A DNA stretch of 28,067 bases from Deltaproteobacteria bacterium (lineage in GTDB: Bacteria > Desulfobacterota > Desulfobacteria > Desulfobacterales > ETH-SRB1). This document shows positions 2,023 to 28,067 of the stretch, in pieces. Made by a program: the position numbers and the translations under genes. Every line of letters begins with the position of its first letter. Within the stretch, counting starts at the first letter, position 1. Under the pieces are notes generated by a model, which had not been told where the DNA came from, ran no database searches, and saw only the letters and a program-made list of their open reading frames with translations. Location: NCBI GenBank assembly GCA_019314185.1, contig JAFCZU010000006.1:1-28067 (forward strand), in the 5' to 3' direction.

Positions 2023-2490
2023 TGATATATTCCTTTATTAAGGATGAGTTCGTAAAAAATTGAATTCATCAGGTGTTAGGTGTTAAGTGTTAAGTTAAAA
2101 CAATTAGCTGCTCAAGTTTCGCACCCATAAAAACGCTTAAATATCAACAAGTTTTACATAAAATGAGATCAATATTTTTGATGAACATTTTTTCAAAATA
2201 AAAAAACAGACCCCGCGCCAATTAAAGCTTTGCGGATATTGCTCCTGCATTGATTTTGGCATAGCAATTGTCTATCTATTTGAAATTATACAATTTACTG
2301 CTATAATCAGACCATGCGGAACTTGAGTTATCTATTTATCAAGCTCTTAACACTTAAACCTGGCACTTAACACATTTCATTCTTTATCACATAAAAACCC
2401 CAGAATCAGTCAAATCGCCGGACAGTCAAATCAAAATCAGGTATCCGCGCGCGCTCGACATTCATCAATGGGGCTTTTAGAAAGCTTTTT
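2023..2490. other. Gene-free secD-yajC spacer with repeat units
   Basis: This 468-bp spacer has no convincing gene or RNA. It begins with a repeat unit (2043-2104). A second set of related units in the opposite orientation is near 2346-2372 (CTTAACA, CTTAAAC, CTTAACA). The rest is AT-rich and unremarkable apart from a GCGCGCGC run near 2448. Such a long gap between yajC and secD suggests repeat expansion in an otherwise compact operon. Confidence 0.5.
2043..2104 (+). repeat. Dispersed repeat unit: TTCGTAAAAA hairpin plus AGGTGTT heptads, copy 1
   Basis: GATGAGTTCG (2043-2052) and TGAATTCATC (2061-2070) form an imperfect stem around TAAAAAAT. Directly after come heptads AGGTGTT, AGGTGTT, AAGTGTT, AAGTTAA (2071-2098), then AAACAATT. 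The same order of parts recurs at 14824-14887 and, inverted, at 2957-3004. Confidence 0.75.
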
Positions 2491-2956: not shown

Positions 2957-3004
2957 TATCTTAACACCCAACATCTGATGAATTCGACTTTTTACGAATT
3001 CATC
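2957..3004 (-). repeat. Dispersed repeat unit, copy 2 (inverted)
   Basis: Read on the minus strand this is a perfect 10-bp stem, GATGAATTCG and CGAATTCATC, around an 8-base loop containing TAAAAAGT, followed by heptads AGATGTT, GGGTGTT, AAGATAA. It has the same architecture as the units at 2043 and 14824. It overlaps the stop codon of the upstream lipoprotein gene, so it lies at the 3' end of that transcript and could act as a 3' hairpin. Confidence 0.75.
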
Positions 3005-5072: not shown

Positions 5073-5400
5073 GTTGCTCGTTGCTTGTTGCTTGTTATGA
5101 ATTGAGGAGCGAAGCGACACCATTATTCAAAATTCGATGTTGGACGTTCGACGTTCGACGTTCATCCCTTTTCTCTTCTAATCCTCTGACCTTCTGATCT
5201 TTTGCTTGTTGCTGGTTTTCTGGCCTCTGACATCCGACCTCTGTTTCTTTCTCTTCTAATTCCCGATCTCTAACCCGTGGGCAGGCACAGGGGCCAGCCC
5301 CTATTCTGGCATCTGATTCCTCTAATCCTCTAATCCTCTGACATCTGTTTCTTTTGCTGGTTGTTACTTTCAGCTCTACGCTCTATGCTCCCTGCTCACC
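5073..5400. repeat. Mosaic of different 7-bp degenerate tandem repeats
   Basis: The spacer between purB and the next gene consists almost wholly of short arrays with a period of seven: GTTGCTC/GTTGCTT/GTTGCTT/GTTATGA (5073-5100), GATGTTG/GACGTTC x3 (5136-5163), TCTGGCC/TCTGACA/TCCGACC/TCTGTTT (5219-5246) and GCTCTAC/GCTCTAT/GCTCCCT/GCTCACC (5373-5400). A TCTAATCC array of period eight lies near 5310-5340, and a GGGGCC-type GC-rich palindrome around 5278-5303. The last array runs into the stop codon of the upstream gene (5396-5398). Confidence 0.8.
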
Positions 5401-14773: not shown

Positions 14774-14823
14774 GTTTTATATTCTCCTTAACTTGTGTCT
14801 ATGGATTAATCAACACTTGATTA

Positions 14824-14887
14824 TTTCGTAAAAAAACGAATTCATCAAGTGTTAAGTGCAAAGTATTAGGCATTAGGTTAAAACAAT
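14824..14887 (+). repeat. Dispersed repeat unit, copy 3
   Basis: TTCGTAAAAAAACGAATTCATC is followed by five heptads, AAGTGTT, AAGTGCA, AAGTATT, AGGCATT, AGGTTAA (14847-14881), then AACAATT. It matches the unit at 2043-2104 part for part, including the shared AAACAATT edge, although the two lie 12.7 kb apart in different operons. Confidence 0.75.
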
Positions 14888-15139
14888 TGTCTGCTTAACC
14901 ATACCCTTAACGCGTAACACCTTAGTGGTAAAATAGCTGCCTTTTTTTAACCTAAGTTGAGCGATTTTTTGCGAAGATATGTGCTGAGATCTTGATGCAT
15001 AAGGATTTGCAAAAACCACAGGCATACCCGTGGATATGTCGAGGATTTTTGCGAAGCCTTTATGCGCAAAAGATTGGCGCAAATCGAGTAAAAAACCACT
15101 CAATTTAGGTTTAAACATAGATGGCGTGAACTGTTGCAA
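14873..15139 (-). CDS. Doubtful 88-codon ORF between infC and rpmI
   Basis: The frame starts at TTG 15137-15139 (or ATG 15116-15118) and encodes a basic peptide with no motif that I recognise. Its last codons overlap a dispersed repeat and its start lies inside a hairpin. No ribosome site is apparent. It may be a fast-evolving small gene inserted in the operon, or non-coding spacer with a chance reading frame. I lean to non-coding. Confidence 0.25.
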   Translation of the reverse strand: MQQFTPSMFKPKLSGFLLDLRQSFAHKGFAKILDISTGMPVVFANPYASRSQHISSQKIAQLRLKKGSYFTTKVLRVKGMVKQTIVLT

Positions 15140-15251: not shown

Positions 15252-15791
15252 TCATTTTGGCGCTATGATCATCATCATGGTACGGCCTTCAAATTTAGGA
15301 TATTGCTCAACCAATGCAATGTCCTCGAGTTCTTCGGCAATTTTTGCGAGTAAATCCCTGCCGCGCTGCGAAAGCATAATTTCTCGGCCCCTGAAAATAA
15401 CGGTTACTTTTACCTTATCCTTTTTCCCAAGAAACTTCTTTATGTGCCCAATCTTGGTTTGCAGATCGTGATCACCAGTTTTAGGACGCACTTTTATTTC
15501 TTTAACCTGAAAGGTGCTTTGTTTCTTTTTTGCTTCCTGTTGCTTTTTGGTCTGTTCGTATTTAAAACGGCCATAATCCATTATTTTGCAAACAGGAGGA
15601 TTTGCATTGGGAGAGATTTCTACCAGATCAAGACCAAAATCCCCTGCGGTTGCAAGCGCCTTATAAGTTGGAAGAACACCAACCTGATTGCCGTCAGGAT
15701 CTATAACCCTTACCTCTTTTGCCCTTATTCTATTGTTGATATTTGTTCTGTCTGATCTGGACGGCCTGTTTGTTTTTCTGTGTATAGCTAT
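15252..15791 (-). CDS. infC: Translation initiation factor IF-3, probable AUA start
   Basis: IF-3 keeps the ribosomal subunits apart and checks start codons. The protein is recognisable over about 179 residues: NNRIRAKEVRVIDPDGNQVGV near the N-terminus, DLVEISPNANPPVCKIMDYG in the middle, and the C-terminal domain with FQVKEIKVRP and VTVIFRGREI. An in-frame ATG occurs only at 15579-15581 inside the protein (IMDYG), which would remove the N-terminal domain. Upstream, the frame is open to a stop at 15810-15812 and has no ATG, GTG or TTG. AGGAGG (15799-15804) lies exactly 7 bases before ATA 15789-15791, so I take ATA as the start. IF-3 genes are known to use rare starts (AUU in E. coli) for self-control. 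First gene of the rpmI-rplT-pheST unit. Confidence 0.95.
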   Translation of the reverse strand: MAIHRKTNRPSRSDRTNINNRIRAKEVRVIDPDGNQVGVLPTYKALATAGDFGLDLVEISPNANPPVCKIMDYGRFKYEQTKKQQEAKKKQSTFQVKEIKVRPKTGDHDLQTKIGHIKKFLGKKDKVKVTVIFRGREIMLSQRGRDLLAKIAEELEDIALVEQYPKFEGRTMMMIIAPK

Positions 15792-15804
15792 GCTTTCACC
15801 TCCT
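15789..15804 (-). promoter_or_regulatory. Ribosome site deciding the infC ATA start
   Basis: On the minus strand AGGAGG (15804-15799) is followed by TGAAAGC and then ATA. A GTG overlapping the ribosome site (15797-15799) is out of frame. The next ATA, two codons later, would have a 13-base gap, longer than optimal. Confidence 0.75.
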
Positions 15805-15972
15805 GAAGATTAACTTAATAAATTTAAAACCCCTTTTTTACGAAGTCATCAATATTACAAACTGTCTGCATATATAACAATATAAAGAAATGCAAGAAAA
15901 AAAATGATTTACTTTACGCATATGCATAATCCTTATAAAAAAACTTCCTGCGAAAACAGCAGAAAGCATTTT

Positions 15973-16136
15973 TGATGGCGTCGTAAAAAGTCACGAATGT
16001 AGCTATGGATGGCTACGTTAAAAAGTTTCATATACAAGGCGTAGTGATTTTTCAGAGTCGAAGGCATACATATAGTATGTTGAGAGTCTGAAAAATCACT
16101 GCAACGCAGTAGATGAAATTTTTTACGACGCCGTCA
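15973..16136. mobile_element. 164-bp MITE-like palindrome abutting the deaminase gene
   Basis: The left end TGATGGCGTCGTAAAAA (15973-15989) matches the reverse complement of the right end (16120-16136) at 16 of 17 positions. Nested inside, AGTGATTTTTCAGA (16043-16056) and TCTGAAAAATCACT (16087-16100) are perfect 14-bp inverted repeats, and CATAC/GTATG lie at the tip. The whole element can fold into one long hairpin. It has no coding capacity. The first three bases of its right end supply the TGA stop of the neighbouring deaminase gene (16134-16136). No clear target duplication could be read. Confidence 0.8.
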
Positions 16137-16634
16137 TTGTATGAGAGTATAGCTGGCCAACAGACTTCCCCTCCAGTATGTATTATCAAATTTTGAAAAA
16201 TATTTTTTAAAAAGCTCCAGACTCCTGTTACGTAAAATACTTGGCATAACCGGAATCAGGTTATTTCTAAACAAAGGAGCGGATTTTGTCAAATCACACC
16301 CCGTACATCCGCTCATTACATCTTCATACGCGTAAACTATTTCGCCAATTCCGCATAAAACAAGAGCACAATAACACATAAGACATGGTTCCAGGGTACA
16401 GAACAGGGTTATTTCTTTTGGTTCAATATTTTCCTTAAGACCAGCTAACTTCCTTACAGCGATAATTTCTGCATGATCAATTTCATTGATGGAGTTTCCT
16501 GTAGTACCTGTTCTTGATCCGGTCACAAGAATTTTATTCTGATATACCATCACGCATCCTACAGGAAATTCACCGGCAGAAAACGCTTCTCGGGCCAGGT
16601 CCAGCGCCTTTTCCATAAAATAATTATAATCCAT
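16134..16634 (-). CDS. CMP/dCMP-type nucleoside deaminase (TadA-like fold)
   Basis: The protein has the zinc deaminase signature: DHAEIIAVR (H54, E56 in this start's numbering) and TLEPCLMC (C84, C87), so it should hydrolytically deaminate a nucleoside or base. It resembles TadA in overall layout, but the block after the second zinc motif reads CYCALVLCGIGEIVYAYED instead of the CAGAMIHSRIGRVVFG expected of a tRNA adenosine deaminase, and it is rich in Cys. I therefore do not call it tadA; guanine, cytosine or another small substrate is possible. I chose the ATG at 16632-16634 (MDYNYFMEKAL), where family similarity starts; a longer reading begins at 16694. Its stop codon is the edge of the adjoining palindromic element, so the original C-terminus may differ. 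Confidence 0.82.
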   Translation of the reverse strand: MDYNYFMEKALDLAREAFSAGEFPVGCVMVYQNKILVTGSRTGTTGNSINEIDHAEIIAVRKLAGLKENIEPKEITLFCTLEPCLMCYCALVLCGIGEIVYAYEDVMSGCTGCDLTKSAPLFRNNLIPVMPSILRNRSLELFKKYFSKFDNTYWRGSLLASYTLIQ

Positions 16635-17515: not shown

Positions 17516-18280
17516 TTACTTCAGAGGCCACAGATAAAACCTTTTCACTCCACTTGTCAATCTGCTTTGCCATTTTGCATTGTTATCGAGTTTACTGCGA
17601 AATCGTTGAACGCCAGCACAAATGGTGGATATGGCCTCGTCTGTATCGTCATCATTCAACCCTTTTTCCCCGTCTGGCAGAGCAATGCGCATAGCTTTGC
17701 GCAAACTGTCGAAAACCTGACAGCGCCAGTGCAGTTCTTGAACTCCCTGCTGAAACCAGATCTTCCGGGGAATACTCCAGACACTGCCTTGCAGATGCCT
17801 TTACCCATGTCATAAACACAAGCCTGTGGAGTGCAAAGTCTTTTTGTAATTTTTGCAGAAAAAGGTACAATATGATCTGCATGCTCACTTGGAACTTTCA
17901 CGTTGCCCAAGATAATTTCACTCAGACTGTCCATGCCGGTGCATCCCCATCCCAGATGAAGGATATATCCGCCGAAGAGCCCCATTGATTTACTTGTGGC
18001 ATGCTGGATAATCGTAACGATCAGATGCGTGGTTCGCGATAGTGGGAGATTCGCCTGAGGTAGACGCCCTCCCTGTCTGCGTACAACGCACAGGCAGGCT
18101 TGTACTTGAACAAAATTGATCGCCCCTTAAACTCAGGTGGCGCTGCTCGAAGCTCACTGCAGCCTGATGCGACATGCAGCACGTTCGGGGAACGTGTCCT
18201 ACAGAAACTATCGGCACAAAGATAGATGTAGGGCCTGTTCTCCGAACCGGCCGAAACTTAGTGCAGCCGGTTTGTTTCAT
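17516..18280 (-). pseudogene. Frameshifted remnant, probably of a transposase
   Basis: Three minus-strand fragments follow each other in two frames: 18280-17990, 17985 to about 17770, and about 17770-17516. They read on in sense as one protein: the first has an Arg/Cys/His-rich start (FRPVRRTGP, later TGRASTSGESPTIANHA), the second MGLFGGYILHLGWGCTGMDSLSE and ACVYDMGKGICKAVSGVFPG, the third QELHWRCQVFDSLRKAMRIAL. The DMGxGIxKAV...FPG segment recalls transposases from related sulfate reducers. The assignment to a family is from memory and no terminal inverted repeats were found. The 5' end overlaps the front of tssJ on the opposite strand. Confidence 0.5.
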
Positions 18281-18800
18281 AAAACCAAAAAATTATGCAA
18301 AAGTTATTTTCGTCTGCAATGCCGACAAGAAACCTGATCCTGTTCCTGTGCGGAGTTTTGGGGAGAGGGCAATAAAGATTGATTATAAAGCAGACAAAGA
18401 GCTAAATCTTTATGAAGGAAAATCCCATACCATCCTAATGTGTCTTTACCAGCTAAGTGATTCTAATATTTTTAATGAATTATCTAAAAGTAAAGACGGG
18501 CTTAATAAACTTTTAGGGTGCCTGCGTTTTGATGAAAGTGTAGTTGGATTTAAAAGGATTATTGTTCAACCCGGCGAAAATAAAACCGTATATCTTGACA
18601 GAGCTGAAAAAGCCAAATGGGTTGGACTGGTCGCGGGCTATTATGATCTGGCGCCCGGTCAAATTACCCATCTTTTTGAGATTCCGGTTGTTATTAAGAC
18701 AAAGGGGCTGTTGTTTAAGAAACGAACTGCAGAAATAGAAAACATGTCAATTAATCTGATTCTGGGCCCCAGCGCCATTCACAATATTGGAGATAAATGA
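18174..18800 (+). CDS. tssJ: Type VI secretion lipoprotein TssJ, abnormal 5' end
   Basis: TssJ is the outer-membrane lipoprotein that anchors TssM in the type VI membrane complex. The region from about residue 60 is recognisable: AIKIDYKADKELNLYEGKSH, CLYQLSDSNIFNEL, then LDRAEKAKWVGLVAGYYDL, matching the TssJ/VasD beta-sandwich. The first 45 or so residues are not TssJ-like and come from DNA occupied on the other strand by the transposase-like remnant, so the signal peptide is missing. Cys48, followed by NADKKPDPVP, sits where the lipidated Cys and proline linker would be, but the residues before it (KVIFV) are too few and lack the Gly/Ala at -1. The gene overlaps tssK by 4 bases (ATGA). As written, the product would not be lipidated. 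Confidence 0.75.
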   Translation: MQHVRGTCPTETIGTKIDVGPVLRTGRNLVQPVCFIKPKNYAKVIFVCNADKKPDPVPVRSFGERAIKIDYKADKELNLYEGKSHTILMCLYQLSDSNIFNELSKSKDGLNKLLGCLRFDESVVGFKRIIVQPGENKTVYLDRAEKAKWVGLVAGYYDLAPGQITHLFEIPVVIKTKGLLFKKRTAEIENMSINLILGPSAIHNIGDK

Positions 18801-20136
18801 TGATTTCGAAAAAACCGCTTTTTTGGCACCAGGGCCTGTTTTTACAGCCTCAGCATTTCCAGTATTTAGATCAATATTTCCAGTCTTTGCTGTCACCTGT
18901 GCTTCAGTACCACTGCCCCTATTTTTGGGGGGTTGTTGAAATGGAGGTTAATAAATCCGCCTTGGAAAATCGTACATTTGAGCTGTTTAAGGGGAGGTTT
19001 TTATTCCAGGACGGCACAGATATAGTTTCTCCAGGCAACTGTGTTATTCAGCCCCGATCATTTGATGAAGCATGGGTGGAAGCGGAAAAACCGTTTACAA
19101 TTTATTTGGGATTGCAAAGATTTGACAAGGCGGCACAAAATGTCACAGTACTTCCCGGCCTGGACGACCTGTCCGGTATCAGCACACGGTTTGTTGCCAC
19201 TGAGAATCCTGAAGAAATGGTAGATATATACGGGGGCGGGCCTCCGGCTCAGGTAAAAAGATTAAATTATGTATTGAAGATATTTTGGGAAAATGAAGTA
19301 AAAGAGCTGGGCAACTATTATCTTATACCTTTAGCCCAATTACAGCGGGATGGTAAGGAAATAAAATTCTCTCAAAAGTTTATTCCTCCAACAATATCTA
19401 TATCCGGTTCCGATGAGCTTGTGAAAATAATAAAAGAGATTCGTGATCAGGTGGCTTCACGCTGTCGCCAGCTCGAAGAGTATAAAAGTCCCAGGGAAAC
19501 TACAGTCTTCAGATTTTGAAGCAAGCTATATGATCTATCTTCTGGCTTTGCGTTCTTTAAACAGATTCGTGCCCGTTCTTTTTCATCTTATGGAGACGCC
19601 CAATATCCATCCCTGGGTCTATTATGGGGTATTAAGGCAGTTAGTCGGTGAATTGAGCACATTTTCAGAGCAGGTAAACGCAACAGGGGAGCTGTTTGAC
19701 GGGACAAGGGTGTTGCCGATCTATGACCATCAGAAGCTATGGCCCTGTTTTTCCGATGTTCATACTTTAATAACCGGTCTGCTTAATAGAATTATTATTG
19801 GCCCTGAACATGTAATCAGGCTGAAGCGTGATGGGGATTATTTTGCATCTGAGGATATTCCGGCCAACGTCTTTGACAGCCGGAATGTTTTTTATCTGGC
19901 AGTTAAGACGGATGATGACCCGAACAGTACTATTGAGTCCATCCGGACAATAGCTAAATTAAGCAGCCCCGAACATATTGGAACGCTTATTTCTAGAGCT
20001 TTACATGGGATTAAATTAGAGCAAAGTATGGTTCCACCTCCGGGATTGCCGAGGAGGCCGAATGTTTTTTACTTCCAGATAGATCATAACAGCCCCCAGT
20101 GGGCTGATGTGCAGCAGTCAAGAAACATCTCACTCA
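18797..20136 (+). pseudogene. tssK: Type VI baseplate protein TssK, frameshifted and 3'-truncated
   Basis: TssK links the type VI baseplate to the membrane complex. The first part (18797 to about 19498) reads KPLFWHQGLFLQPQHFQYLD, a hallmark of TssK, and runs to about residue 234. The frame then stops at 19517-19519 while the family sequence goes on in the next frame from about 19500 (LQSSDFEASYMIYLLALRSLN, later YFQIDHNSPQWADVQQSRNISL). One extra base between about 19480 and 19500 explains this. The two parts add up to about 445 residues, close to full length. The end is cut: after RNISL, near 20136, the sequence becomes the middle of TssF, so the last dozen or so residues are lost. Confidence 0.85.
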
Positions 20137-21234
20137 GGTTTTTCTTTAAAAGAGACTCTTTTCTCCTATCCAGGGCGGTCCTTTCCTGGCTATCGATTTA
20201 TACAAGAATATTTTATGTTGCCGGAAAAATTTCTCTTTTTTGACCTGACCGGCCTTGATAAATGGCTTAACAGGGGTGAGGGCTCGGATTTTGAGATCAT
20301 CTTTGAACTTGGAAATATCCAAATTGCAATGCCGGAAATAAAGCCGGAAAGCTTTATTCTTTTTGTTTCTCCTGCTATCAATGTTTTCCAACATGAAGCA
20401 GATCCCATCAGGGTTGATCATAAGCAGACTGAATACAGGGTAAGGCCGACGGCCGACATTAATAGCCACTATCAGACATATTCCGTTGACAGTGTAATCG
20501 GAATCGTGCAGGGATCTGTTGAACATCGTGAGTATGCACCCTTTGCATTTTTTGGTCGGCAGGAAGCCGAAGTTCCGATTTATAATATTAGCAGAAAAAA
20601 ATCTCTCGTTGATCAATCATCGAATGTTTATTTGAGTCTGACATATCCTCCTTCAGCCGAGCTTTCTGTTTCCGAGACCCTGTCTATCTCTCTTACATGC
20701 ACAAATGCTTCTCTTCCGGAAAATTTACAGCTCGGTGATATTTCCAGGCCCACTCAAACTTCGCCGGAGCTGATGGAATTTAAAAACATTCTTCCGCCTA
20801 CTGCCCCTGTCCAGCCCCCCATCGGGGGCAATATGCTCTGGAAATTTCTATCTCATCTCTCGTTAAATTATTTATCCCTCGCACGTGCCGATAATATAAA
20901 AGAGCTGCTGAGTCTTTATATTTATCCGGAGGGACAAAACAGGGCGAAGATTGCCTCCAACACAAAACGTATTGAAGAAATTCAAGACATTCAGGTTGTG
21001 CCTGTTGACCGGCTGATATCAGGGTACATGATGCGTGGCCAGGAAATTCGGCTTAAACTTAGAAAGGATAATTTCGCATCTACCGGAGATATGTTTCTTT
21101 TTGGATCTGTCATGGATTATTTTTTAGGCGTATACAGCAGCATGAATTGTTTTACTCAATTTTCTGTTGAAGAAAGCATAACAGGGGAGATATATTCATG
21201 GCCACCCAGGATTGGCGACAGACCTTTGACATAA
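20137..21234 (+). pseudogene. tssF: Type VI baseplate protein TssF, N-terminal part deleted
   Basis: TssF is a main component of the type VI baseplate wedge, of about 600 residues. Only about the last 365 remain. From codon 20137 the sequence reads GFSLKETLFSYPGRSFPGYR, then IQEYFMLPEKFLFFDLTGLD, strongly TssF-like, and it ends with VMDYFLGVYSSMNCFTQF and WPPRIGDRPL, the normal C-terminus. Roughly 230 N-terminal residues are absent and the tssK sequence abuts directly. An ATG at 20107 gives an open frame, but its first ten codons are out-of-frame tssK DNA. The tail overlaps tssG by 37 bp as in intact loci. Confidence 0.85.
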
Positions 21235-21897
21235 AAGAAGAACTCTTAAAAAACGGCAACCAATTTTCTTTTATTCAGGCAGTGCGGTTGCTTCATTATA
21301 TAATCCGAAAAGACCATCAGGATGACGGGCGCAAAGACAGTAATATTGGCCGATCCATCAGGGTAAGACCGAAATTATCCCTTGATTTTCCCGATACCGA
21401 TATCGATTCCATAGAAGAAATTTCCGCGTTCCGCTCAGGGACTAAACAGGCTTCTGTCAGATGCTTTACAGATGGAGCGTATGGAAATTGATCAATGCAT
21501 CTCCAGAATGGCGGCTATTCCTGAGGACCAGCGTTTTTTTCTGGGTGTTTCCGGGGCAGAACTGGGTTTAAACAGCTATCTTGGTCAGGAGATTGACGAC
21601 CGGATGGGTTCATTTCGGATCAGGATAGGTCCGATTGATGCCGATACCTTCCATGATTTTCTGCCGAATACCGGTAAGTTTGATACTATGGCACAACTTA
21701 TCCGTTTGTATATGGACAAGCCTTTGATATGGGAAAATGAAATGGTTTTAAACGCTGATGAAGTAAAAACGGTCCGTCTTGGCGAACAGCGCTGGTCACA
21801 CCTTGGCTGGGATACCTGGATGTTTTCGGATAAGAATTATCCTCACGATGTGAGCGCTAAGTTTCAAGAGCAGATAACGCGTAAGGCAGGGCTTTAG
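21198..21897 (+). pseudogene. tssG: Type VI baseplate protein TssG with out-of-frame internal deletion
   Basis: TssG joins TssF in the baseplate wedge and usually has 300-350 residues. The N-terminal part (21198 to about 21420) reads QFSFIQAVRLLHYI and RSIRVRPKLSLDFPDTDID, as expected. The frame then runs to a stop at 21489-21491, while the family sequence resumes in another frame at 21421 with FPRSAQGLNRLLSDALQ and continues through FRIRIGPIDADTFHDFLPN and LGWDTWM to 21897. About 75 plus 158 residues remain, so about 90-110 residues from the middle are gone and the junction changes frame. Confidence 0.85.
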
Positions 21898-21904
21898 CCC
21901 TGCC
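21885..21904. repeat. GC-rich hairpin at the tssG end
   Basis: GGCAGGGC (21885-21892) and GCCCTGCC (21897-21904) form a perfect 8-bp stem with loop TTTA, spanning the tssG stop codon. No U-run follows, so it is not a standard terminator. It may moderate read-through into tssH or be a dispersed repeat. Confidence 0.55.
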
Positions 21905-21935
21905 CTACGATTTTCCCCAAGAAAGGAGAAAGCTC

Positions 21936-24581
21936 ATGATAACCGTAGATATTAAATCCCTGTTAATTCACCTGAACCCGTTTTGCACAAACGCGCTTCA
22001 GTCGGCAGCCGGGCTCTGCGTTTCCCGATCCCATTACGAGGTTACGGTGGTGCATTTTCTGGTTAAATTTTTAGATGAACCCCAGTCTGACCTGCCTCTT
22101 ATATTCCGTCAGTTTGACATGGACCCGGGTCGTGTCAAAAAGGCGCTGGAGGAAACCCTTGAGGAATTCAAAACAGGAAATGCTGCAAAACCTGTTTTTT
22201 CACCCCTCCTTTTAGAACTTGTGCAGGATGCCTGGATGATTGCCTCCATTGACCTTGGAGAAAAAACAATACGTTCAGGGGCAATCCTTCTGGCCTTTTT
22301 GTCCAAACCTACATTTTTTGCATCAGGCAGATATGCGGATTTGTTGAAAACCATCGGCAGAGAAGCCCTGACAGCTCAATTTTGGAATATCACCAAACAT
22401 TCCATGGAAGAAAAGACAGCGGCCGCGGCTCTTGGAACTGGAGAAGCGGCGGAACGAGCAGGAGCAACAGGCGCCGGCACGGCACTGGGCCGATTCTGCA
22501 CGGATTTTACACAAAATGCCAGGGAAGGAAAGATTGATCCTGTTTTCGGCAGGAATAAAGAAATTCGCCAGATGATCGACATACTGGCGCGGCGGAGAAA
22601 AAACAATCCCATCTGTGTGGGTGAAGCCGGTGTAGGAAAAACAGCGGTGGTGGAAGGCCTGGCGCTGCGGATAACCGAAGGGGATGTGCCGGATATTTTA
22701 AAGGATGTGACCCTGCTTAGTCTTGATATGGGGCTTCTTGAGGCAGGAGCAGGCGTAAAAGGGGAGTTTGAAAACCGACTCAAAGGGGTAATAAACGAAA
22801 TCAAGGCCTCGGAAAAACCGATTATTCTCTTTATCGACGAGGCTCATACCCTGATAGGCGCAGGTGGGTCGGCAGGTGGCGGCGATGCCGCAAACCTGTT
22901 AAAACCTGCCCTGGCACGGGGTGAACTGCGAACCGTGGCGGCAACTACCTGGAGTGAATATAAAAAATATATCGAAAAGGACGCTGCCCTGGCGCGTCGT
23001 TTTCAGCCTGTAAAGCTTGATGAGCCGAGTGTTGAAACAAGCACTCTCATATTGAGAGGTCTCAAGGAAAATTATGAAAAGGCTCATAAGGTAATGGTCA
23101 GAGATGATGCGGTTCGGGCGGCGGCAGAGCTGTCCGACCGTTATATTACAGGGCGATATCTGCCGGACAAGGCGGTTGATCTTCTTGATACAAGCTGTGC
23201 CAGAGTCAAAATCAATATTACGACAAAACCGGACGTACTTGAAGACAAGGAGCGGAGCATCCAGGCGCTGGAGCGGGAAAAGACAGCCTTAGAGAGAGAT
23301 CAAGTCAATGGAATTGAGATTGATGAAGAGGAGCTGGCTGAGGCAATAAAAAATATAGCAATCTTGACTAAAGAAGCGTCTGAGCTGAAAGAAAGATGGC
23401 TCAAGGAGCAGGAAGCAGCCAATAAAGTTCTGGAATTAAGGGCTGGCATCCAGGGACTCGGTGATACAAAGGAGGATGAAAAGAAAGAAAAGAGTCTGAA
23501 AAAAGAGATGAAGAAGGCGAATCAGGCTCTGGAAAAGATCCAGGGAGACACCCAGCTTATCCGCATTGAAGTAGATCCCGATGTGGTTGCCAAGGTAGTC
23601 TCAGACTGGACAGGCATACCGCTTGGCAAGGTCCTGCGCGATCAGGCCCAGAACATCCTGAAGTTTGAAGATACGCTGAAAGAGAGTATCAAAGGCCAGG
23701 ATCATGCCTTGAGTATAATAGATGAGGTGATCAAGGCGTCAAAATCCGGGCTAAAAGACCCTGTCCAACCCATAGGAATCTTCCTTCTTGTCGGTCCCTC
23801 TGGTGTGGGCAAAACCGAAACAGCCCTTACGGTTGCCGACATTCTCTTTGGTGGAGAGCGTTCCGTTGTGAGTGTCAATATGAGCGAGTTTCAGGAGAAA
23901 CATACCGTGAGCCGCCTTATCGGATCTCCGCCCGGCTATGTTGGATATGGCGAGGGTGGTATGCTTACGGAGGCGGTGCGCCAGAAGCCATATTCGGTGG
24001 TGATTCTTGATGAAGTGGAGAAGGCACATATGGATGTGATGAATATCTTTTATCAGGTCTTTGATAAAGGCGTTCTCTCTGATGGCGAAGGAAGGGTTAT
24101 TGATTTTAAGAATACGGTGATCTTTCTCACAAGCAACCTGGCCACCGATGTGATTACGGAGATGACCAAGGGGGATGACACGCTTCCCGATGATGCAATT
24201 ATGAGCGCGGTGCGTCCCATTTTATCCCAGCACTTCAAACCTGCGCTTCTCGCCCGTATGGCTGTCGTTCCTTTTTATACATTAAGGGCAGACGCCATGA
24301 AGGGTATCGTCCGTCTCAAATTAGACAAACTTGCTAAACGGCTCATGCAGAATAACAAAATGAAGCTGGTATATAGTCCGGCAGTTGTTGATCAAATCAC
24401 AGCAAGGTGTACTGAAGTGGAAACCGGCGCCAGAAACATCGATTATATGTTAAGCGGTAATATCATGCCCCGCATGTCCCAGGAAATCTTGTCGCACATG
24501 ACCGAAGAGGGCATGCCTTCGGAGGTTCACCTCGATCTGAACAAGGACGGGTCGTTTAAGATGAAATTTAAAACCGAGTAA
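21936..24581 (+). CDS. tssH: Type VI secretion ATPase TssH (ClpV)
   Basis: ClpV is the AAA+ ATPase that takes apart the contracted TssB-TssC sheath for reuse. The 881-residue protein is complete. The N-terminal domain (about 1-160: [20 protein letters not shown]) is of the ClpV type, which binds TssC. The first AAA+ module has Walker A GEAGVGKT (about 229) and Walker B LFIDEA (about 298). A coiled-coil middle domain covers about 430-540. The second module has GPSGVGKTE (about 620), ILDEVEKAH (about 690) and [19 protein letters not shown] lies 7 bases before the ATG. Unlike its upstream neighbours it shows no damage. No TssB or TssC substrate is encoded in the window. Confidence 0.96.
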
Positions 24582-24717: not shown

Positions 24718-27366
24718 ATGGACTATCTTAGCAAGAAAAAATTCGATTTTGTGTCTTCTGCCCTGTCCACAGACACATTCGGTGTGGTCAGGTTCAAGGG
24801 CTCTGAAGGCTTTTCCATGTGCTATGAGTTTGAGATAGATCTGGTCTCTAAAAATGCTGAAATAGACCTTACCGAAGTTCTCAAAAATCCTGTCACATTT
24901 ACCATACTGCGGGAGGACGGTGACATCCCTTTCCACGGTATCCTGACACAATTTGAACAGCTTCATGAGGTGGATGAATATGTCTTTTATCGTGCTGTCC
25001 TGGTTCCGAAACTGTGGTGGCTTTCACTGACCCACCACAATCAGGTTGTTTTGAACAAGACCGTACCCGAAATAATCGAAGATGTTTTGAAAGACGGCGG
25101 CCTTACATCTCTCGATTTTGAGTTTAAACTGGAGAAGGAATACCCAAAGTGGGAATATATCTGCCAGTATAGCGAGAGCTATCTCAATTTTGTGTCTCGC
25201 TGGATGGAGCGGGAGGGGATGTATTACTATTTTGAGCAAACAGAGGGTGGTGAGAAAGTAATCATCACCGATACACACATTGCCCACACCGAGATGCCTG
25301 AAGGAAAGACCATGTATTATTCTCCACCCTCGGGTCTGGCTGAGTTTCACCGGGAGGAGATTATTAATGCTTTTATCTGTAAACAGAAGATGCTCCCCAA
25401 AACGCTTCGTCTCAAAGATTATAACTACCGCACGCCTTCTCTGGAAATTTCAGGCAGCGCTGAAGTTTCAGCACAAGGCAGGGGAGAAATCTATATCTAC
25501 GGCGAGCATTTTAAAACTCCGAAGGAAGGTAATCAGCTCGCAAAAATCAGGGCGGAAGAATTTCTATGTCAGGAAAAGCGGTTTCATGGCGAGAGCACCA
25601 TTCCATACCTGAGGCCGGGATATCTCTTTGATCTCGATGATCACTACAGGGGGAGCTTTAACCAGAAATATCTTACAATTGAACTTGAACACGAAGGGAG
25701 CCAGACAGCCTTTCTTATGGCCGGTATTCAAAAAGGGCTTTCTGAAGTGGAAAAACAGCCTTATTACAGAAACAGCTTTGTATCCATACCTTCCAATGTC
25801 CAGTATCGACGAGAGCGTAAAACAGAGAAACCCCGTTTTTACGGCACATTAAACGCAAAGATCGATGCCGCGGGGAGTGGCAAATACGCAGAATTAGACG
25901 ATCAGGGACGCTACAAGGTTATCCTGCCTTTTGATATGAGCGGCCGGAAAGACGGCAAGGCTTCAACCTTCCTGCGCATGACCCTGCCCTATGTCGGGAC
26001 AGATCACGGTATGCATTTCCCCTTACACAAAGGCACAGAAGTGCTGCTTACATTTATCGACGGCAATCCAGATAGACCGATTATAAGCGGTGCTGTACCC
26101 AATCCTGATTATCCGAGCATGGTCAATACAGGTAATGTCACAGGCGCCGGTATACGGACAGCAAGCGGCAACCAGATATCAATGCAGGATAATGAAGGAC
26201 ACGAGAGGATTTTAATCGGTTCCGGCGATGGCAAAACACGCATCATATGCGGGGCAGGGAGTAGTTCGAAACTGCTGACACAGAGTGACTATCAAGCTAA
26301 CTGTGCCGATTATTATATGACCCTGGCAAGCTCTGGCACCACAATTGCGAACTCTTTCAGCTGGAGTGCCATGTCCGGCTCACTGGTACCCCAGGTAGGA
26401 ATTAACCTCCTCAAGCGGTGGAGCCAGGAAGTGGCTGAATGCGATGAACTGGGACACCGGATGGGTGCTATTGATAAAGGTACGCATTTAAAAAATTGGA
26501 CAAAGACCCAGGAAACACTTCTCTCGGTGACACCCTCGGTTCTGAGTGTCATGTTTAATAGCTGGATAATGTCTTCATTAGCAAAGCATTTAAAGCGGAA
26601 AGGACTCGTGAGAGACGACAGCGAATATGGGCAAATTGCGCAGGAATTTACCGCAAAGTTTAAAGACAAAGGATTGATGGCGAAGTGGAAATGGCTTACG
26701 GAGCACACCCGCTATCTGCAATTAGTTGCCAGGGCCTACGGATTTGGCACAGCCGGTTCGTATGGGGTTGCCCTTGTGTCTCATATCCCGCAAAAGATAG
26801 GAAAGTGGGAATCGAGTGATTTTGTAAAAGGTCTTATTGATCCGAGATGTGCTTCGTTAATAAAGTTAAACAAAGCGTCGCCCGATGTTCTTATTGCTTC
26901 AACATCGGGGCATGTCGATATTGCCGGCGATAAGGGTATCCACCTGTATTCGGGTGAAGAACTCCATATCGAAGCGCTTGAAGAAGCAACGATACAAAGC
27001 CAGAACCTGATATTAACCGGGGAAGCTCGGGGACGGAAGGGGCTGATTGCCATAAACAGAGACAATGAACCCAAAATCGAGCTTGAAATGAAGCAATCTA
27101 AAATCATTCTCGATGATATCACGGGTATTGAAGAGAGCACCGGGGCATCGCTGATAAAACTCAATATTCATCCGCTTGATAAACCGGATGATGTTATTGG
27201 TACGATACAGATTAAAAATCCGAATGCCGGTTATTCTGCCAAGAAACAGGCGACGGAAATCACGCTGGAAAATGACAAATGCCTCGTAAAACTGGACAGC
27301 GTAAAGGATAAGTTGGAAATCAGTATAAGACAAGATAAAAAATCTGATCCTATCGCACAGATCTGA
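24718..27366 (+). CDS. vgrG: Type VI spike protein VgrG with helical insertion
   Basis: VgrG trimers form the puncturing tip of the type VI tube and carry effectors. Of 882 residues, about 1-370 are the gp27-like base (WMEREGMYYYFEQ, then LRPGYLFDLDDHYRG) and about 380-510 the gp5-like OB fold (GRYKVILPFDMSGRKDGK, MHFPLHKGTEVLLTFIDGNPDRP). From about 515 to 700 the repeating beta-prism is interrupted by a mostly helical, partly hydrophobic segment (NSFSWSAMSGSLVP, LLSVTPSVLSVMFNSWIMSS, YGFGTAGSYGVALV). The beta-helix resumes at about 730 (SGHVDIAGDKGIHLYSGEEL). There is no obvious enzymatic motif. GAGGTG precedes the ATG at 4 bases. The coding sequence is undamaged and is followed at once by a tail-like ORF and a DUF2169 gene. 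Confidence 0.95.
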   Translation: MDYLSKKKFDFVSSALSTDTFGVVRFKGSEGFSMCYEFEIDLVSKNAEIDLTEVLKNPVTFTILREDGDIPFHGILTQFEQLHEVDEYVFYRAVLVPKLWWLSLTHHNQVVLNKTVPEIIEDVLKDGGLTSLDFEFKLEKEYPKWEYICQYSESYLNFVSRWMEREGMYYYFEQTEGGEKVIITDTHIAHTEMPEGKTMYYSPPSGLAEFHREEIINAFICKQKMLPKTLRLKDYNYRTPSLEISGSAEVSAQGRGEIYIYGEHFKTPKEGNQLAKIRAEEFLCQEKRFHGESTIPYLRPGYLFDLDDHYRGSFNQKYLTIELEHEGSQTAFLMAGIQKGLSEVEKQPYYRNSFVSIPSNVQYRRERKTEKPRFYGTLNAKIDAAGSGKYAELDDQGRYKVILPFDMSGRKDGKASTFLRMTLPYVGTDHGMHFPLHKGTEVLLTFIDGNPDRPIISGAVPNPDYPSMVNTGNVTGAGIRTASGNQISMQDNEGHERILIGSGDGKTRIICGAGSSSKLLTQSDYQANCADYYMTLASSGTTIANSFSWSAMSGSLVPQVGINLLKRWSQEVAECDELGHRMGAIDKGTHLKNWTKTQETLLSVTPSVLSVMFNSWIMSSLAKHLKRKGLVRDDSEYGQIAQEFTAKFKDKGLMAKWKWLTEHTRYLQLVARAYGFGTAGSYGVALVSHIPQKIGKWESSDFVKGLIDPRCASLIKLNKASPDVLIASTSGHVDIAGDKGIHLYSGEELHIEALEEATIQSQNLILTGEARGRKGLIAINRDNEPKIELEMKQSKIILDDITGIEESTGASLIKLNIHPLDKPDDVIGTIQIKNPNAGYSAKKQATEITLENDKCLVKLDSVKDKLEISIRQDKKSDPIAQI

Positions 27367-27367
27367 G

Positions 27368-27553
27368 ATGGATCTTTCGGCAAAAAGAATCAGAGTGATG
27401 GCAGAGACAGCCGTCGAGATCGATACTGCTGGAGTAAAGATAGGACAGGGTAAGCAAATGTGTAAATCGGTTGATGTGGGCTCCGACAGCACACGCATCA
27501 ATTTCAGAGGAAGCGAATTTAATTTTAACGGTAAAAAGGTCAAACTCGGTTGA
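27368..27553 (+). CDS. Small ORF continuing the VgrG beta-helix
   Basis: The ATG lies one base after the vgrG stop, in another frame. The 61 residues have alternating beta pattern (LSAKRIRVMAETAVEID, later INFRGSEFNFNGKKVKL) like the repeats of a gp5/VgrG tip. It is either a separate short tip protein translated by coupling, or the true end of VgrG separated by a frameshift near 27360. It has no PAAR-type HxxH motif that I can see. Confidence 0.55.
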   Translation: MDLSAKRIRVMAETAVEIDTAGVKIGQGKQMCKSVDVGSDSTRINFRGSEFNFNGKKVKLG

Positions 27554-27564
27554 ATGGGAACGGT

Positions 27565-28067
27565 ATGAATATTCACAAGCAGGATGTACACTCAGCCTTT
27601 TCAAAGGTATTTCAAGCAAAAGGTAAAAATCACCTGGCCATTACAATTATGAGCGCCTTTCCGTTTGACCGACCGTCTGAAATGCTGGATGAGAGCGATC
27701 TCTGGAGTGCCGCCGGTTCCGCCCTGTCGAGCCATGATGTGCTCGACATGTTTATGCCCAAGCAGAATGGAGAGATCCTGGCAGCAGGGAAGTTTTTCAG
27801 TCCCGGCAGGATGCCCGTTCGGGCAGGCAGTGTTCGAATATCTGTCGGTTCTAAGAGTAAAACATTGCATGTTTTCGGTGATCGTCGCTGGATAAAAAAG
27901 GCCGGTATGGTAAGCGGCATTTCGGATCCGCAGCCGATGACCGAAATGAAAATTACCTATGAAAATGCTTTCGGGGGTTCCGGTTTCAAGCGGAATCCAT
28001 TGGGAAAAGGAATGGAAGAAAAAGATGCTGAGGGCGCGATACCCCTGTCAAACATAGAGTATCCGGA
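27565..28067 (+). CDS. DUF2169 protein (type VI-associated), cut by window end
   Basis: The frame opens at ATG 27565 and is open to the window end, 167 codons. It matches the N-terminal half of DUF2169 proteins: AAGKFFSPGRMPVRAGSVRI, SKTLHVFGDRRW and the typical ITYENAFGGSGF. DUF2169 proteins sit next to vgrG in type VI loci and are thought to act as adaptors or chaperones loading effectors onto the spike. An effector would be expected just downstream, outside the window. A GGGAA lies shortly before the start. Confidence 0.85.
   Translation, partial: MNIHKQDVHSAFSKVFQAKGKNHLAITIMSAFPFDRPSEMLDESDLWSAAGSALSSHDVLDMFMPKQNGEILAAGKFFSPGRMPVRAGSVRISVGSKSKTLHVFGDRRWIKKAGMVSGISDPQPMTEMKITYENAFGGSGFKRNPLGKGMEEKDAEGAIPLSNIEYP

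Follow-up and report, generated by a model that had tools for sequence, protein, structure and literature searches.

In the window, meaning the whole stretch of 28,067 nucleotides analysed here, the initial annotation saw tssK run directly into the middle of tssF, and proposed that a type VI secretion system (T6SS) locus had suffered a large deletion. This raises the questions of whether the two genes were joined by a deletion, and what has been left of the secretion system.

The junction of tssK and tssF

That tssK passes straight into mid-tssF is confirmed by the Pfam placements (Table 1) and by a DNA alignment with a relative, L001. TssK coding extends to about position 20135, where it ends in ...SRNISL, and TssF coding takes over from 20135/20137. 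The second part of tssK shares 93% identity, over 82% of the query ORF, with P0206 (464 aa), the closest TssK listed. P0206 carries 19 residues beyond NISL that are missing in the window, in agreement with the claim that TssK is readable to RNISL and lacks its tail. On the other side, window positions 20135-21426 match L001 (1502-2805) at 92% DNA identity. The alignment begins inside the intact tssF of L001, against which the junction is sharp. Upstream of the match, L001 continues through this intact gene (577 residues), preceded by a tssE-like gene (137 aa, 51% identity to the TssE of locus L033). TssF is kept from residue 213 of 577, with 37% lost; the loss had been put at the N-terminal 40%, and the start near residue 235. 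At the DNA level the right-hand parent of the junction is represented by L001 only, and we infer the left-hand parent from the P0206 protein. These co-linear matches to the TssK and TssF families are too long, and their E-values too low, to have arisen by chance.

Alignment with intact TssK and TssF of relatives bears out both truncations at the junction. Among the matches listed, such intact relatives are known at 88-93% protein identity, and the closest are full length (577 aa for TssF P0001-P0003, 463-465 aa for TssK P0206-P0208). A short TssF was not found as a functional form in relatives, P0001, P0002 and the L001 protein all having 577 aa. A scan of genome contigs with the TssF piece found two relatives, L001 (93% amino acid identity) and L002 (60%). 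Within the class, TssF matches occur in 102 of 389 genomes (126 rows). By hand count 113 of these rows cover nearly the whole query, starting at residue 8 or before and ending at residue 356 or beyond; the 13 partial rows, not all of which need be decayed, lie in eight genomes, and one has an internal stop. The protein collection also holds a cluster of shortened TssK, marked as window-encoded, with three sequences on two contigs (the longer of 39,390 bases) that are not necessarily independent assemblies.

Table 1. Positions of T6SS features in the window, and the evidence for each.
Feature	Position	Strand	Evidence
tssJ remnant	18303..18800	+	PF12790, E 4.9e-16; L033 TssJ residues 15-180 at 18303-18797, E 1.7e-44
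tssK, first part	18797..19519	+	PF05936 profile 1-207, E 1.3e-42; aligned with relatives including P0206 and P0207
tssK, second part, other frame, ends ...SRNISL	19497..20135	+	PF05936 profile 203-413 of 429, E 1.7e-53, on the ORF at 19443-20243
tssK/tssF deletion junction	20133..20137	+	Start of L001 alignment at 20135 and reference distances; about one base common to the inferred parents
tssF, 3' part, residues 213-577	20137..21234	+	PF05947 (TssF) profile 227 to its end, 608, E 6.2e-91 (Pfam), on the ORF at 20107-21234; 93% identity to L001
tssG, first part, ~76 codons	21198..21425	+	PF06996 profile 3-68; L001 and L033 tssG
tssG, last part, other frame	21424..21897	+	PF06996 profile 190-303; L033 tssG 189-338 at 21424-21873
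tssH (clpV)	21936..24581	+	Open, 881 codons; alignable end to end with L002 ClpV
vgrG (tssI)	24718..27366	+	Open, 882 codons; PF05954, E 2.5e-81; PF04717
DUF2169 gene, cut by window end	27550..28065	+	PF09937, E 1.4e-32

Gene order in intact loci and extent of the proposed deletion

Eight stretches around the tssF genes of relatives were fetched, and three of them (L033, L038 and L040) contain both tssK and tssF. All three have the order tssJ-K-L-M-tagF-A-B-C-hcp-E-F-G-H, preceded by a weak FHA_C-like gene (22.1 bits in L033, below the Pfam cut-off of 23.7 for T6SS_FHA_C, and 24.8 in L038, above it); in L033, genes J to E were verified by Pfam. These intact T6SS loci, from genomes of the class to which G001 belongs, resemble the remaining J-K...F-G-H genes of the window in content, order and strand. 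They differ in having a longer tssG, the weak T6SS_FHA_C-like gene before tssJ, and 10.5-11.1 kb between tssK and tssF, which agrees with the earlier statement that several genes normally separate the two. Measured between the break points, the distances in these three loci are 10,529, 11,067 and 10,555 bases. The run from K to F is not universal, since tssK was not found within the other five stretches. L034-L036 and L039 have the order G-F-E-hcp-C, with B and A as well in L035, L036 and L039, while the same genes in L037 are followed by part of tagF, and the stretch stops short of the expected place of tssK. The 2.1-Mb MAG G001, to which L001 belongs, was dropped as a source of an intact locus, having no tssK, tssC or tssM match.

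The initial annotation had tssB, tssC, hcp, tssE, tssL and tssM absent between the joined genes, and a search with 13 L033 proteins as queries gave no convincing match to any of them in the window. For tssL, tagF, tssA, tssC and tssE there was none at E <= 1; the matches for tssM (E 0.46), tssB (0.010) and hcp (0.90) were short, lay away from the junction and were attributed to chance. The proposed ancestral order, from comparison with relatives, would be tssJ-K-L-M-tagF-A-B-C-hcp-E-F-G-H-vgrG. A single deletion of ~10.5 kb, taking the last 19 codons of tssK, the first 212 of tssF and all that lay between them (tssL, M, tagF, A, B, C, hcp and E), explains both the join and the absences, provided that the ancestor was arranged like L033, L038 and L040. 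Such an ancestor is supported by the presence of tssJ and tssK upstream in the window. With ends almost without homology, the deletion probably arose by illegitimate recombination.

The simplest explanation, as had been proposed, is thus one deletion removing all of these genes, although several successive deletions would be indistinguishable from it. It is unlikely that the missing genes were lost in such steps, or were moved elsewhere: with tssG cut by a second deletion and the left end missing too (see below), stepwise erosion of the same locus is plausible, but a clean join of two points within one conserved run needs one event only. For the main deletion, one event rather than several is the inference adopted here.

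Further lesions and the genes that remain open

The initial annotation did not include three further lesions: a frameshift in tssK upstream of the junction, an internal deletion in tssG and the loss of the start of tssJ. Together with the main junction they are packed into ~3.1 kb (18303-21428). The tssK lesion, near 19497, is a +1 frameshift caused by an extra base next to a short run of A (three only), where the window reads SPRE|TTVFRF followed by a stop and relatives read SPREIQSSDF. Programmed frameshifting in tssK was considered, since P0123, a TssK relative at 72-73%, switches frame at nearly the same codon (SPRE|FNPPIF...), which is probably due to chance together with the length filter of the search. 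The idea was rejected, as a query of 240 aa favours truncated hits and the nearest full-length proteins (P0206, P0207) show no break in the frame.

In tssG the middle of the gene is missing, with ~340-360 bp lost at 21424-21428, out of frame. The L001 tssG matches the window to ...GAAATTTCCG and diverges after it; between the corresponding break points, L002 has 357 bp, L033 336 and L038 and L040 339 each. After tssG (21880-21911) there is a small palindromic repeat of the AGGGCT..AGCCCTGC type, which also occurs twice between tssE and tssF of L001 (~573-637). At the left end, the mature part of TssJ is recognisable, while the first ~14 residues, the start of the signal peptide, are not, and the frame extends upstream into unrelated sequence. 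In the three loci with tssJ another gene lies ahead of it, and a search of the window for that gene gave no match at E <= 1. Besides the main event, the proposed decay would include a smaller out-of-frame deletion in tssG, a one-base insertion in tssK and removal of the left part of the locus as far as the beginning of tssJ.

Nine of the ten neighbouring housekeeping genes tested (secD, yajC, purB, Rne/Rng, pheT, pheS, rplT, rpmI and infC) score above the cut-off of an NCBIfam model and match it over almost its whole length. The remaining one, tadA-like, has an open frame and matches the greater part of its model, but with a score below the cut-off (79 vs 150 bits). A broken infC was considered and dropped: a simple ORF list gives it as a 109-codon gene because its first part has no ATG, GTG or TTG start, but the open frame (15252-15809, minus strand) has 185 codons and matches positions 3-168 of the 170 in the model.

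Of the components of a functional T6SS, the sheath and tube genes (tssB, tssC, hcp) are not found within the window. The membrane complex is represented there only by tssJ, without its start, no tssL being found and the tssM match being the short one above. For the baseplate, tssE is not found, and tssF, tssG and tssK are all broken, each being intact in relatives (L001 for tssF, L002 and L033 for tssG, P0206 for tssK). ClpV and VgrG are open. With the sheath (TssB, TssC), tube (Hcp) and membrane complex (TssL, TssM) gone and the baseplate broken, this copy of the T6SS would be unable to build an injection machine, a loss of function predicted from the gene content.

That ClpV and VgrG are still readable may reflect either a recent loss or their use by another system. 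According to the latter explanation, ClpV, VgrG, the DUF2169 protein and perhaps the tail of TssF are working parts for a second, complete T6SS elsewhere. This is unlikely: it fits the open, full-length ClpV and VgrG and the purifying history of the TssF remnant (below), and some genomes of the class do have two or three near-whole tssF rows (e.g. G031, G041, G176 and G373), but a recent loss accounts for the same signals, and what is left of tssK, tssF and tssG seems to be of no use in its present form. It is distinctly improbable that the locus is a stripped-down one, in which selection maintains intact ClpV, VgrG and the DUF2169 gene as a spare module that delivers for a second T6SS located elsewhere in the genome.

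A further explanation, and a very improbable one, is that the junction is an artefact, i.e. a chimeric read, an amplification chimera or a wrong gap closure that joined distant parts of an intact locus: the full-length state of the nearest TssF and TssK listed would fit this, as would the absence of the junction pattern from viral contigs, the sole collection scanned for it, but such an artefact must also account for three other lesions (in tssG, tssJ and tssK) within ~3 kb of a contig where nine of ten housekeeping genes tested are clean, and the single base or so shared by the inferred parents at the join makes collapse over a long repeat unlikely. In the viral contigs, three stretches fitted a pattern for TssF relatives and none was confirmed. 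The window is best read as containing a T6SS that decayed recently, the host being deltaproteobacterial (Desulfobacterota-like), and we regard it as highly probable that the locus has decayed through a deletion of ~10.5 kb joining tssK to tssF, plus the smaller lesions.

Age, genomic setting and precedents

Between the tssF remnant and L001, dN is 0.036 and dS 0.235, a ratio of ~0.15. This low ratio alone gives no sign of relaxation in the remnant. The unique amino acid changes, counted as window:L001 against three outgroups, are 14:7, 10:10 and 11:9, and those of an intact control (P0001) are 18:7, 8:11 and 9:9. There is no clear acceleration; most of the divergence would therefore have arisen while tssF was under selection, and the loss of the system appears to be recent.

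The block of genes from pheT to HSDR_N is syntenic with genome G025 up to window position 17532 and with G023 up to 17465, after which G023 has other ORFs. In neither genome was a TssF match found. The GC content of the T6SS part is 43-51%, compared to 36-44% in the preceding 18 kb. The end of synteny just before the locus, and the difference in GC, suggest that the T6SS locus was inserted in this lineage, though loss in both G025 and G023 is possible. The segment from where synteny with G025 stops to the tssJ remnant (17533-18302) has no blastn match to the fetched loci. Three ORFs of 17516-18280 have no Pfam family, and 17656-18126 (minus strand) has no match to plasmids. ARAGORN found no tRNA and Rfam gave no hit at gathering scores, so nothing in the window points to insertion at a tRNA. 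The housekeeping DNA of G001 is only 67-78% identical to the window (matches of at least 300 bases), whereas the T6SS DNA of L001 is 92% identical; either the locus has moved between lineages, or the 3.1-kb contig of L001 has been mis-binned. Five short dispersed repeats of the window (2043-2110, 2960-3004, 5100-5173, 14817-14923 and 15981-16140) each have several to many further copies in G025, and some of them also occur in G023, G191 or G001.

The decay of a gene cluster is an event of an ordinary kind, and similar large deletions in T6SS loci have already been published for Salmonella. SPI-19 of Salmonella Enteritidis has an internal deletion of ~24 kb (PMC2907695), after which three core components are left, one in truncated form (PMC2907695, PMC2908676), and SPI-6 of Saintpaul SARA29 has one of ~15 kb (PMC2908676); the authors consider each system probably non-functional. 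The Salmonella islands are like the window in that a large internal deletion takes core T6SS genes (PMC2907695, PMC2908676), and unlike it in belonging to another phylum and having other break points, the join in the window lying inside two baseplate genes and being accompanied by further small lesions. A literature search of titles and abstract openings found no title on T6SS decay in the deltaproteobacterial (Desulfobacterota-like) group.

For annotation, the locus carries a warning, as counting the pieces of TssK, TssF and TssG together with ClpV and VgrG would wrongly call a T6SS present. The locus may have been inserted in the lineage and then decayed, and it offers a clean example of the loss of a contact-dependent weapon in an environmental bacterium.
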